A stretch of DNA of 27,780 nt from a virus. The notes under the pieces were generated by a model that saw nothing but the letters and a program-made list of their open reading frames with translations, made no database searches and was not told the origin of the DNA. The translations under genes and the position numbers were made by a program. Location of the stretch: positions 1 to 27,780 of IMG/VR virus record IMGVR_UViG_3300009180_000176. The stretch is one strand, 5' to 3'. Below are positions 1,463 to 24,852 of this stretch, in pieces. Positions within the stretch are counted from its first letter, which is position 1, and each line of letters begins with the position of its first letter.

Positions 1463-3097
1463 ATGATGAGTAACAGTCAAAAACTAGAAGCTCTCCGTGA
1501 GCTTAAACGTAGGGAGAAGATCAAAGAGTATGGGAGTAACTTTGAGTTATTTGCTTCAGAACAGATCCGTATTCTCCCTAAGGACTCCCGCGCCGGATTC
1601 CAGCCCTTTGTGTTTAACGAGGCGCAACATATTGTGAATGAAGCTATTGAGAGACAGTTGAGAGAGACTGGTAAAGTCAGAGCTATTATTCTTAAGGCTC
1701 GACAGATGGGCCTATCCACATACACAGCTTCTAGAGTATTCTGGAAAAGTTACTTTAACAAGTACAATAAGTCAGTTGTGATGGCCCATGATAGTGCCAC
1801 TTCTGACGCTCTCTTCACGATGAGTAAGAACGTTATTCAGCATATGGGTGAAGAGTTCAGACCAGAGATGAAGAAGTCTAACGCTAAAGAGATTATGTTT
1901 GAGCATAATGATTCAGGATACAGACTATATACCGCAGGATCTCCTGAAGCGGGTAGGGGTATTACGCCTACTATTGCACATCTTTCAGAAGTAGCCTTTT
2001 GGCTGCATGATGAGAAGATTTTGGCGGGACTCTTTCAGGGTATCTCCCAAGCAGACGGTACCGAAGTAATCCTTGAGAGTACAGCTAACGGGGTAGGTAA
2101 CTCATTCCATCGTTTATGGAAAGGTGCCGTAGAAGGTACTAACGAGTATATCCCTATCTTTGTTCCTTGGTACCTCATGAGTGAGTACCGTAGGAAAGCT
2201 CCTGAGGGGCTTGAAGTTACAGAGGAAGAAGAAGTACTTATTACGAGGTATCAATTAGACTTAGATCAGCTGTACTGGAGAAGGCTTAAGGTAGCTGAGG
2301 GTGGACTGGATAAGTTCCGTCAGGAGTACCCTAGTAACCCTGATGAAGCTTTTATTGTTTCAGGTAGTAACGTATTTAACGTAGAGAAGCTTAGTGCTCT
2401 TGTTCCTCAGCCTATACTGGCTCAGATGAACTTTAACTTTGAGTCTCAGATGATGGAGACTATAAAGAATGGTTCGATTGAAATATTTAAGTATCCTACT
2501 TTTGAAGATTCTTTTGCTGTTGGGGCTGACGTTAGTCTTGGGGTCGGTAAGGACTACTCTACGGCGGTAGTAATGAATGCTAAACGGGAGGTCTGTGCTG
2601 TATATAGAAATAATACTATTGACCCTTCTCAGTTTGGTGATCTGTTATTTTATCTCGGTCGCTATTACAACAATGCTCTCTTAGCAGTAGAATCAAACAG
2701 TATGGGTATTGCTACCCTGAATCGGCTCACTCAGATGGGTTACGTCAACATGTACTTCCAAACAAAGATGGCTAATGTCTCTAAGGAAGAGGGGACGAGA
2801 ATTGGGTGGAGAACCACTATGGCTAGTAAACCAGCTATTATTGGATTCTTAAAGAATGCTATTGAGCAAGAGGATATATGGATTCCTTCCCGGATAGTTA
2901 TTGGGGAATTGATGAACTATATTGCTGATGATAATGGCAGAACTAACGCTATTGTAGGTCATCATGATGATACTGTGATTGCGTTAGCTATTGTTCTTGA
3001 AGTTATTAGGACTCATGGGGACAGATTAACAACTAATAAAGTAACCTTTACACAAAAGATAGGTGCTTTTGAGACAGATAAAACACAATGGATTTAA
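1463..3097 (+). CDS. terL: Terminase large subunit (packaging ATPase-nuclease)
   Basis: At 544 aa this has the usual TerL length. The N-terminal ATPase has a deviant Walker A (KARQMGLST, residues 78-86), a Walker B/catalytic glutamate region (HLSEVAFW, 173-180, E176) and a coupling-like motif ESTANG (205-210). The C-terminal RNase H-like nuclease shows an acidic triad: D356 in GADVS, E410 in AVESNS, and the HHDD cluster at 500-503. TerL cuts concatemeric DNA and pumps it through the portal into the prohead. Two adjacent ATGs (1463 and 1466) follow AAGGAC; the second has more normal spacing. The gene is first in the rightward block, just after the promoter-like motif. No small terminase gene is evident beside it. 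Confidence 0.96.
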   Translation: MMSNSQKLEALRELKRREKIKEYGSNFELFASEQIRILPKDSRAGFQPFVFNEAQHIVNEAIERQLRETGKVRAIILKARQMGLSTYTASRVFWKSYFNKYNKSVVMAHDSATSDALFTMSKNVIQHMGEEFRPEMKKSNAKEIMFEHNDSGYRLYTAGSPEAGRGITPTIAHLSEVAFWLHDEKILAGLFQGISQADGTEVILESTANGVGNSFHRLWKGAVEGTNEYIPIFVPWYLMSEYRRKAPEGLEVTEEEEVLITRYQLDLDQLYWRRLKVAEGGLDKFRQEYPSNPDEAFIVSGSNVFNVEKLSALVPQPILAQMNFNFESQMMETIKNGSIEIFKYPTFEDSFAVGADVSLGVGKDYSTAVVMNAKREVCAVYRNNTIDPSQFGDLLFYLGRYYNNALLAVESNSMGIATLNRLTQMGYVNMYFQTKMANVSKEEGTRIGWRTTMASKPAIIGFLKNAIEQEDIWIPSRIVIGELMNYIADDNGRTNAIVGHHDDTVIALAIVLEVIRTHGDRLTTNKVTFTQKIGAFETDKTQWI

Positions 3098-22909: not shown

Positions 22910-23089
22910 ATGACAACGATTGATGCAACAGAAGCACGTATTTCTTCCCACGAAGAACTCTGTGCTTTACGCTATGAGATGATTAATGCTCGGCTTAAAC
23001 GGTTAGAGAGTATTTTAATTACAGTATGTGGCGTATTGCTAACTAGCATGGGTGGGATTATCTTTACTTTTCTAAACCATGGTAAATAA
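22910..23089 (+). CDS. Small coiled-coil/TM protein, 59 aa (XhlA-like arrangement)
   Basis: ATAGGATATATTAA precedes the ATG at 22910. Residues 1-33 form an amphipathic helix (HEELCALRYEMINARLKRLE), followed by a single hydrophobic segment at about 34-56 (ILITVCGVLLTSMGGIIFTF). The layout of a short cytoplasmic helix plus one TM matches small phage membrane proteins of the XhlA/holin-accessory type and many unnamed phage proteins with HE(x)ECALRYE-like helices. It opens the membrane/lysis block before holin and endopeptidase. I infer a role in lysis or membrane anchoring; the family is not confirmed. Confidence 0.78.
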   Translation: MTTIDATEARISSHEELCALRYEMINARLKRLESILITVCGVLLTSMGGIIFTFLNHGK

Positions 23090-23091
23090 GT

Positions 23092-23199
23092 ATGAATGAA
23101 CTAGTTAACCTATTAAGATTTATAACACCTAAAATAGCTTCTGGGGTTGCTGGCCCCGGAGCTGCTGCTGAATTCTTTAAGAAGACAGTAGGTATGTAA
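23092..23199 (+). CDS. 35-aa peptide similar to the holin N-terminus
   Basis: The ORF runs from ATG 23092, three bases after the previous stop, to TAA 23197-23199, which touches the next ATG. The ribosome binding site is weak, so it is probably coupled. The product is MNELVNLLRFITPKIASGVA followed by GPGAAAEFFKKTVGM. It aligns with the start of the 151-aa holin (MNDLFNLLKGIAPTLATAVA then GPLGGAAV), sharing MN(D/E)L, NLL, I-P and AGP. It could be a truncated paralogue of the holin or a short membrane-active peptide controlling it. That it is a separate small gene rather than a chance ORF is supported by the tight junctions and the similarity. Confidence 0.65.
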   Translation: MNELVNLLRFITPKIASGVAGPGAAAEFFKKTVGM

Positions 23200-23931
23200 A
23201 TGCCTCTTATTCTTCTTGCAGGAGCTATCAAAGCGGTTGAGGCTATTCAGCAAGGTTGCGAGATGTACAAAGAATATAAGGGAACAGTTCTTAGAGCAAA
23301 AAAGACATTTGATGAGGTTAAAGGTATTGCTCAGGAAGTTACTTCTGTAAGCACAAATATCTGGGGATTTCTTAAATCAAAATTATTTTCTGAAGAACCT
23401 CCTCAAGTCGTTGCCTCCAAAACCGTAAAAGAAATTAAGAAAACAATTAAAGCTAAAGAAGAATTTCAAGAGTTTGATGAACAGTCTGTTAAGACTGATT
23501 TAATAAAAAATCTTAAAATATTTTTTAAAGCTATGATTGCTATAAAAAAGAAAATAGCAGAACAACAGGAAAGAATTGATCATTCAATGATTGATCCTGA
23601 TGAACTTTTAGATATATCTCTTGATCATGTAATAGTTCTTAAAGAGATGGAAAAATTACAAAAAGAAATTCGAGAGATAATGGTTTATCAAAGCCCTCCT
23701 GAGTTAGGTGCATTATATACAGACGTAGTTAATATGTTTGGTATTGTACAAGAAAAACAAGAAGCAACTCATTTGCTTAATATGAGAAAAAGAAAAGAAG
23801 ATTATCAAAGAAAACAAATGTCTGTTAGTAAAATGAGACACAGAGTTCTTTGGTTAGTTGCTATAGCAGTAATTATACTTGAGATATGGGGGTTGATATT
23901 TACAATACATCTAGCGAGACAGCCTATATAA
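23200..23931 (+). CDS. Long helical protein with C-terminal TM anchor, 243 aa
   Basis: The ATG begins one base after the preceding TAA, with GTAGG upstream. After a hydrophobic start (MPLILLAGAIKAVEAIQQGC), residues 25-210 are helical and very Lys/Glu-rich (KTVKEIKKTIKAKEEFQEFD, KEMEKLQKEIREIMVYQSPP). A single TM lies at about 215-237 (RVLWLVAIAVIILEIWGLIF). The C-terminus, ARQPI, is basic. It may be a membrane-anchored coiled-coil rod. No family is recognised; similar proteins of unknown role lie near lysis genes in aquatic phages. It is not a standard spanin: the TM is at the C-terminus and no lipobox is present. Confidence 0.82.
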   Translation: MPLILLAGAIKAVEAIQQGCEMYKEYKGTVLRAKKTFDEVKGIAQEVTSVSTNIWGFLKSKLFSEEPPQVVASKTVKEIKKTIKAKEEFQEFDEQSVKTDLIKNLKIFFKAMIAIKKKIAEQQERIDHSMIDPDELLDISLDHVIVLKEMEKLQKEIREIMVYQSPPELGALYTDVVNMFGIVQEKQEATHLLNMRKRKEDYQRKQMSVSKMRHRVLWLVAIAVIILEIWGLIFTIHLARQPI

Positions 23932-24035
23932 GTTTTCTTATATTACTGACTATATTATTTTTTCTTATTTTACCTTTTGAGTTGTATTTATATATTATTG
24001 TAAAGGACGCTGTTGAAGCGTGTAAATTAAAATGA
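23886..24035 (+). CDS. Overlapping 49-aa single-TM membrane protein
   Basis: In the frame -1 to the 243-aa gene, an ORF begins at ATG 23886 and runs 49 codons to TGA 24033-24035. It overlaps the upstream gene by 46 bases and the holin start by four (ATGA). It fills the otherwise unexplained 100-base gap between those genes. The product begins MGVDIYNTSSETAYISFLIL, continues with a hydrophobic TM (about 14-39, containing LLTILFFLILPFELYLYIIV) and ends KDAVEACKLK. The acidic N-terminus and Lys-rich C-terminus suggest N-out/C-in topology. Only a weak GAG site precedes it. It could be a holin partner or antiholin-like protein. It may be chance in T-rich DNA, but the exact ATGA junction argues for translation. 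Confidence 0.55.
   Translation: MGVDIYNTSSETAYISFLILLTILFFLILPFELYLYIIVKDAVEACKLK
24002..24034 (+). promoter_or_regulatory. Shine-Dalgarno with hairpin spacer before the holin start
   Basis: AAAGGA (24002-24007) is a good ribosome binding site but lies 24 bases before the holin ATG (24032). A hairpin, ACGCT (24007-24011) pairing with AGCGT (24017-24021) around a GTTGA loop, sits between them. Folding it would shorten the gap to about ten bases. Such hairpin-bridged starts are known, for example T4 gene 38. The only nearer purine-rich site is absent, so this hairpin may decide holin translation. Confidence 0.45.
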
Positions 24036-24487
24036 ATGACTTATTTAACCTTTTAAAAGGTATTGCACCTACACTAGCTACTGCGGTTGCTGGCCCTTTG
24101 GGTGGTGCTGCTGTATCAGCGTTAGCTACTAAGTTTGGTGTGTCTGATAGTGTTGATGCTGTAGCTAAGGCTATTGCTGGTGACCCTCAAGCTGCTCAGA
24201 AATTAGCAGAGATGGAGTTAGAGTATTACAAGACAGAACAAAACAATCTAACAGCACGACTGCAAGCTGACATGGCTAGTGACTCTTGGTTATCTAAGAA
24301 CATTCGTCCTGCCACTTTAATCTTCTTGTTAGTTGCTTACAGTGGTTTCGCTGTAGCATCTATCTTTGGGTATGAGACTCGTGGTGCTTACGTAGAACTG
24401 CTAGGCCAATGGGGTATGTTAGTTATGTCCTTTTACTTTGGTGGTCGCACTATGGAGAAGATTGCTGATAAGGTAAGGAAGAAATGA
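24032..24487 (+). CDS. Holin, three-TM GTA-type family
   Basis: The 151-aa protein begins MNDLFNLLKGIAPTLATAVA with a weakly hydrophobic first segment (about 10-33). A Gln/Glu helix (EMELEYYKTEQNNLTARLQA, 61-80) leads to the hallmark SWLSKNIRPATL (85-96). Two clear TMs follow, at about 93-113 (LIFLLVAYSGFAVASIFG) and 119-138. The SW(x)xxxxRPATL motif matches the three-TM holins first described for gene-transfer-agent release (GTA_holin_3TM). It would form inner-membrane lesions that release the endopeptidase. Its start overlaps the small membrane ORF by four bases and its stop overlaps the M15 gene start (ATGA), so the three are coupled. A distant binding site is bridged by a hairpin. Confidence 0.86.
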   Translation: MNDLFNLLKGIAPTLATAVAGPLGGAAVSALATKFGVSDSVDAVAKAIAGDPQAAQKLAEMELEYYKTEQNNLTARLQADMASDSWLSKNIRPATLIFLLVAYSGFAVASIFGYETRGAYVELLGQWGMLVMSFYFGGRTMEKIADKVRKK

Positions 24488-24852
24488 CTTATACTTTGTC
24501 ACAAAAATCTTTAGATAAGCTTAAGGGTGTTGATGATAAACTAGTTAGTGTTGTCAAACGAGCTATTGAACTTACTACAGTAGATTTTACAGTTCTTGAA
24601 GGACTCCGTTCAAAGGAACGTCAACAAGAACTCTACAATGATGGTAAGAGTCAAACACTAAATTCTAAGCACTTGGTTGGTCGTGCTGTAGACTTAGGTG
24701 TTTTGAAAGATGGTAAGATATCTTGGGAAAAGGAAGACTATACTAAACTGGCAGTAGTCGTTAAACAAGCTGCCAGTGAACTCAATGTTAACATCAAATG
24801 GGGTGGGGACTTCAAATCTTTCTTTGATGGCCCTCACTTCGAATTAGTATAA
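24484..24852 (+). CDS. M15 peptidoglycan endopeptidase (endolysin), 122 aa
   Basis: GTAAGGAAGAA precedes the ATG, which overlaps the holin stop by four bases. The protein is a compact zinc peptidase of the M15/VanY-like class. Arg42 lies in EGLRSKERQ. The zinc ligands are H63 and D70 (SKHLVGRAVDL) and H118 (GPHFEL). The strand WGGDFKSFFDGPHFE (106-120) is the characteristic C-terminal motif. The family includes L-alanyl-D-glutamate endopeptidases such as that of phage T5, which cut the peptide stems of Gram-negative peptidoglycan. It has no signal peptide, as expected for release through a holin. It is the main lysis enzyme in the window. The nominal specificity is inferred from the family. 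Confidence 0.92.
   Translation: MTYTLSQKSLDKLKGVDDKLVSVVKRAIELTTVDFTVLEGLRSKERQQELYNDGKSQTLNSKHLVGRAVDLGVLKDGKISWEKEDYTKLAVVVKQAASELNVNIKWGGDFKSFFDGPHFELV

Follow-up and report, generated by a model that had tools for sequence, protein, structure and literature searches.

What occupies the DNA directly upstream of the holin-like gene in the lysis region of this virus, and does it take part in lysis? The virus record was analyzed in its entirety (27,780 bases, referred to as “the window”) and encodes a terminase, an SU10-type portal, and a lysis region. In the latter, a first-pass annotation had proposed a hidden, overlapping membrane ORF of 49 codons, with one strong transmembrane (TM) segment and an ATGA junction to the holin gene, and all of these features were found as claimed. 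In the following, this ORF is termed gene B, and the larger gene that it overlaps is termed gene A.

A conserved overlapping gene at the front of the lysis cassette

Gene A (positions 23200–23931, + strand) encodes a mostly helical protein of 243 aa with a C-terminal TM segment, which belongs to an uncharacterized family. Gene B (23886–24035, +) is an ATG-initiated frame of 49 codons closed by a TGA, and its product is a single-pass membrane microprotein of 49 aa (MGVDIYNTSSETAYISFLILLTILFFLILPFELYLYIIVKDAVEACKLK); the assignment is based on the ORF, its conservation, and its coding constraint. B overlaps the last 46 nt of A, and this dual-coding segment (23886–23931, +) is read by B in the +2 (= −1) frame relative to A. 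At its other end, the TGA of B shares four nucleotides (ATGA; 24032–24035, +) with the ATG of a gene (24032–24487, +) for a holin-like protein of 151 aa with three TM segments, which matches phrog_3427 (holin, 1.8e-14) and, below the curated cut-off, PF11351 (GTA_holin_3TM, 6.1e-4). A second ATGA junction leads from the holin-like gene into the endolysin gene (24484–24852, +), which encodes an M15 peptidase (PF13539, 2.9e-11; phrog_465 endolysin, 4.9e-56). An in-frame TGA at 23880–23882 makes position 23886 the earliest possible start of B in the window.

Two short genes precede A. The first (22910–23089, +) encodes a 59-aa protein with a coil and a TM segment (phrog_38642, 2.4e-06); a further match, to NCBIfam NF048001 (GTA head formation protein, RCAP_rcc01685 family), falls below cut-off at 2.5e-05. 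The second is a 35-aa ORF (23092–23199, +), which stops immediately before the ATG of A. Its sequence is similar to the N-terminus of the holin-like protein, and in relatives its matches fall at the holin-like N-terminus as well; it may be a recombination scar or a partial duplication. Among the upstream neighbors of A that were tabulated, this ORF occurs in the window only. The large terminase subunit (1463–3097) has its closest relative in Roseobacter phage CRP-7 (58% identity), which provides a possible lead to the host. Neither A nor B is present in the CRP-7 stretch gp36–gp41, and CRP-7 is also absent from the phage-collection matches to A.

A scan of viral contigs with B recovered relatives in 67 of 410 pattern matches; the same scan of the genome_contigs set gave none among 226 pattern matches, and B was unmatched in the phage collection. 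Over all loci collected, B is present in 107 rows with 72 distinct ORF DNAs, the copy in the window included. The ATG lies at the same codon in 67 of the 69 B genes with a complete 5′ end, and two codons later in the remaining two (L031 and L033). Counting from this ATG, the overlap with A could be measured in 67 cases; it amounts to 46 nt in 64 of them, 40 nt in L031 and L033, and 55 nt in one locus (L163). A break of the frame in close relatives would have spoken against the gene; the frame is kept, with the exception of one truncated copy of 38 aa (L034). Fifteen positions are invariant among 47 aligned sequences, including the motif PFELYLY and C46; these comprise P30 and E32 of the TM segment and the Cys in the short tail. 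B has one strong hydrophobic segment (Kyte–Doolittle maximum 2.60, residues 13–31), and the AlphaFold model consists of a single helix spanning residues 9–47 (mean pLDDT 81.5).

This conservation is accompanied by a clear signature of selection, which was assessed after dropping sequences that are at least 97% identical, in the close relatives as well as in a group of distant ones. For codons 16–46 of B (57 sequences), pN/pS is 0.10, as compared to 0.93 and 5.2 when the same DNA is read in the other two frames. Conversely, the fraction of synonymous differences in A amounts to 0.169 within the overlap vs. 0.436 elsewhere, and none of 205 non-overlap windows is as low (56 sequences). Among the distant relatives (26 of 33 loci, namely those with a 106-nt overlap and an A of at least 225 aa), synonymous change in A is likewise reduced, with 0.267 in the overlap vs. 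0.470 elsewhere (0 of 168 windows as low); here, B is under weaker constraint outside the overlap (pN/pS 0.47). With purifying selection in its own frame and a conserved start, B is a genuine gene whose protein product is subject to selection, and its conservation among uncultured phages is strong; being selectively maintained, the gene is presumably translated. Moreover, A/B provides a clean case of long-lived dual coding, in which a change in overlap length can be traced.

The expectation that such a gene would escape gene calling is borne out by a public record: for MW202484 (locus L176, 4585–4875), GenBank gives only the last 46 aa of the B homologue, where a frame of 96 aa is open. In another record, MW202462 (L177, 4824–5027), the B homologue shares its end with a 67-aa lipoprotein-like gene (lipobox LLTGC).

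Linkage and co-inheritance of A and B

The strongest TM segment of A begins at about residue 216, and the structural model of A is helical throughout (pLDDT 73), with the TM segment carried by a long C-terminal helix. This model matches no PDB fold at E ≤ 0.001. A search of BFVD gave six matches at this threshold, all of them uncharacterized proteins of uncultured phages; one of these, A0A6J5L7T4 from an uncultured Caudovirales phage, belongs to the A family (structure search E 8.1e-20, 58% identity). Neither A nor B has a significant family in Pfam, PHROGs, NCBIfam, PADLOC, or PDB sequences. The weak matches, among them those of two distant B proteins (LapA_dom, 0.001, and Pox_A9, 0.0041, respectively), lie below curated cut-offs and are typical of TM and coil segments. 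Searching the phage collection with A returned only three Manatee Spring records, and A proteins of the type found in L032 remained unmatched there. In one locus (L016, 2722–3502), A is divided between two frames, owing to a sequencing error or a broken copy.

For an unbiased test of linkage, loci were retrieved by A alone, and an ORF of at least 40 aa that contains a TM-like segment and spans the stop codon of A was sought. All 66 close and all 33 distant distinct loci have such a membrane ORF in the +2 frame, and the +1 frame yielded none in either group (0/66 and 0/33). The loci assessed comprise 66 of 77 close ones (71 with A, two of which lie too near a contig end) and 33 of 39 distant ones (38 with A); contig-edge and duplicate loci were dropped, as in the locus collection and the selection analysis above, three of the 80 A-retrieved loci, which carry older identifiers, were left out, and many of the A-retrieved contigs were already known from earlier scans. 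A and B are thus constantly linked in one frame. In 58 of the 66 close loci, the ATG of B lies exactly 46 nt before the end of A.

The A proteins of the distant loci share 19–28% identity with A of the window in alignments, and their B proteins are longer and mostly begin with MATR. The overlap with A measures 106 nt in 27 of 33 loci, 148 nt in one, and 154 nt in five. Comparison of the TM regions of close and distant B proteins with hhalign gave a probability of 84.9%. Four loci (L289–L291 and L294) combine the MATR start with a PFELYLY-like core, so that long and short B look like members of one family. Among the close loci, 19 of 69 keep an open extension of 28 codons upstream of the conserved ATG, most of them beginning with MAT. 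An in-frame start codon further upstream of the ATG is available in 47 of 69 close loci and is missing in the other 22, which implies that longer forms of B are possible in relatives; in the window, this option was lost through the TGA at 23880–23882. The internal ATG is kept in long and short forms alike. Loci such as L003 and L021 have both the MAT-type start 28 codons upstream and the internal ATG, and it is conceivable that relatives with a long frame make nested long and short B products.

Does B evolve together with A, or with the gene that follows it? In 47 of 59 close loci, which were used for this comparison, pairwise distances of the non-overlapping DNA of B correlate at 0.72 with those of A (none of 999 permutations) and at 0.20 with those of the gene downstream (10 of 999); for A and this downstream gene, the value is 0.12 (60 of 999). 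Mere linkage would affect both flanks of B alike, and genetic exchange therefore seems to occur just after B. The distant group (16 of the 26 loci above) behaves differently, with 0.08 for A and B (197 of 999), 0.06 for B and the downstream gene (260 of 999), and 0.51 for A and the downstream gene (0 of 999). A pairing of B with A is therefore supported by covariation in the window’s own group only, and in addition by the constant linkage. No covariation between glutamates in the TM segments of A and B was seen by eye in the distant loci.

The role of the A–B pair

Within the lysis region, the surroundings of the pair are constant on one side and variable on the other. All 89 loci that extend for 1.5 kb or more beyond B have a holin-like and/or endolysin match downstream: all 58 close loci have both, as do 22 of the 31 distant ones, and the other distant loci have the endolysin only (seven) or the holin-like gene only (two). 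With this constant neighborhood, B sits in the lysis cassette, at its front. Upstream of A, 55 loci show a gene of at least 300 aa (37 loci), a 59-aa gene (10), a 62–64-aa gene (six), a 75-aa gene (one), or, in the window, the 35-aa ORF. The 59-aa gene of relatives encodes a coil and a TM segment and is similar to the 59-aa gene of the window; one of the 62–64-aa genes was tested and represents a T7-type holin (PF10746, 7.7e-07; phrog_920).

In 66 of 66 cases, B lacks Lys and Arg in residues 1–13, and in 66 of 66 it carries one or more of them from residue 39 onwards; A has four to seven Lys/Arg among the 14 residues that precede its TM segment (59 of 59). The positive-inside rule allows the orientation of TM segments to be assigned from such patterns: A is predicted to keep its N-terminus and its coiled domain in the cytoplasm (N-in) and to cross the membrane with a C-terminal TM segment, and B to be N-out/C-in, with one TM segment and a short cytoplasmic tail. 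The reading that we prefer, albeit tentatively, is that A and B are a heritable pair that heads the lysis cassette, forms a complex in the inner membrane, and serves as an accessory control on when lysis begins. B might pack against the C-terminal TM helix of A, and the resulting complex would tune the onset of lysis at the inner membrane, possibly as a general modulator for different holins instead of an inhibitor of one. The overlap, together with the ATGA coupling, might link the levels of A, B, and holin to one another. A bolder proposal, which we consider possible but distinctly speculative, is that the pair represents a two-protein module for lysis control, not described so far, in uncultured tailed phages, in which a tail-anchored coiled protein and a TM microprotein would sense or gate the inner membrane for whichever holin comes next; the frame of the overlap would have been kept while the N-terminus of B was shortened, and relatives with a long frame may give two products. 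The functions of A and B are predicted, with no characterized homologue found.

Of the competing explanations, the one that survives best, although we regard it as rather unlikely, places the pair outside lysis, as a moron or a virion-related unit (e.g., a membrane complex for ejection or superinfection exclusion) located between late structural and lysis genes. The genes of at least 300 aa, which directly precede A in 37 of 55 loci and were taken for virion proteins, fit this explanation, as does the observation that at least one of them, that of L116, ends in a lytic-transglycosylase-like part (by eye). However, it is at odds with the holin-like and/or endolysin genes that invariably follow, and with the variety of the upstream neighbors, including the 62–64-aa genes in six loci.

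The first-pass annotation had considered B as a holin partner or inhibitor, i.e., in its strictest form, a dedicated partner or antiholin of the adjacent 3TM holin. In its favor, the ATGA junction with the holin-like start, the single TM segment, and the position in the lysis cassette are all as one would expect. The holin-specific part is weakened, as B tracks A and not the holin-like gene in the close loci, and co-inheritance with a cognate holin is not seen in the distant loci either. Furthermore, the gene downstream of B encodes a protein of 145–170 aa in 47 of 54 loci and one of 84–90 aa, with two hydrophobic stretches by eye, in the other seven. In L081, which is of the latter type and whose B protein is 87% identical to that of the window, the next gene encodes an 87-aa protein with no detectable similarity to the window’s holin, and Rz/Rz1-like genes come after it. 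Conversely, many loci with a close relative of the holin lack a B of the window type. Covariation of B with A and the downstream exchange in L081 make a dedicated inhibitor of the window’s holin unlikely, and a holin-specific role is less likely than one as a partner of A in an accessory module of the lysis cassette, although B may act on lysis in a general way.

Could the pair instead disrupt the outer membrane, as an unorthodox spanin in phages without Rz/Rz1? An overlapping gene pair with a coil and TM segments would suit such a role, and a lipobox scan of the 27.8-kb window gave three frames, which are implausible and lie outside the lysis region. Spanin-less phages are known, and N-out/C-in proteins have been considered possible spanins (PMC6139136). 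Yet neither A nor B has a lipobox, the coil of A is predicted to be cytoplasmic, and Rz-like spanin genes occur alongside A–B in 13 of 89 loci. In a lipobox scan of 83 A loci, 10 were flagged, of which eight contain convincing Rz1-like lipoproteins downstream and two (L018 and L150) were judged not to. In the three examined loci of the 84–90-aa type (L081, L086, and L163), the lipoprotein is embedded within an Rz-like gene, which is followed by the endolysin; the genes identified in L086 are an Rz-like spanin, an Rz-like small subunit, and an M15_3 endolysin. A spanin function was rejected as the main role of A–B, given the coexisting Rz/Rz1-like genes, and we consider it improbable altogether.

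Two mechanistic alternatives are hardly tenable. According to the first, B would merely couple translation from A to the holin, its sequence being immaterial. The stop-start junction does have the spacing of −3 (ATGA) between B and the holin-like gene in 40 of 58 loci in which this holin type was recognized, but the low pN/pS and the 15 invariant residues contradict an immaterial sequence. The second, just as doubtful, is that B is reached by −1 frameshifting and forms a C-terminal extension of A. Although each of the 99 loci assessed has B in the −1 frame, none of the overlaps from 64 close and 33 distant loci contains a slippery heptamer of the form X-XXY-YYZ, for which reason a fusion of A and B by frameshifting was rejected; the aligned ATG, its fixed distance to the end of A, and the TGA just upstream in the window speak against it as well. 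Finally, a chance open frame, suggested by a length too short for gene finders to trust by itself, is refuted by conservation and retains a negligible probability.

Comparison with known lysis systems

The preferred reading, an inner-membrane pair that acts as an accessory controller of lysis, can be set against three established arrangements. Like Rz/Rz1 spanin pairs (PF03245; Rz-like spanins in PHROGs), A–B combines a small lysis-cassette gene with a larger gene for a membrane and coil protein, which it overlaps in another frame. The differences are that B has no lipobox and hence does not resemble an outer-membrane lipoprotein, and that the TM segment of A is C-terminal instead of N-terminal, so that A, as predicted, does not correspond to an inner-membrane spanin with a periplasmic coil. 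The overlapping Rz/Rz1 genes are themselves often misannotated, and a bias against overlap hides spanin genes, with no spanin found in about 13% of the genomes analyzed, as reported in PMC6139136.

The pair may also be compared to two-component holin systems. XhlA/XhlB-type cassettes contain a protein with a coil plus a C-terminal TM segment beside holin and endolysin, and A, with its coil and C-terminal TM segment, is found in the same position. In contrast to XhlA, neither A nor B matches the Pfam XhlA family, and B is encoded in an overlapping frame. Antiholins and holin partners are small single-TM proteins that are encoded at the start of the holin gene and coupled to it, which is true of B, too; what distinguishes B is the absence of a sequence match to them and, in the close group, of covariation with the holin-like gene.

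Among the literature matches listed, the A–B gene pair is not described. In the usual description, a phage lysis cassette consists of holin, endolysin, and spanins. Where no Rz-like gene is detected in a locus, B is a candidate for parts of the lysis pathway that are missing there. B, which is conserved, lies outside the family libraries, and has been cut short in one public annotation, suggests that the cassette has a further standing component.
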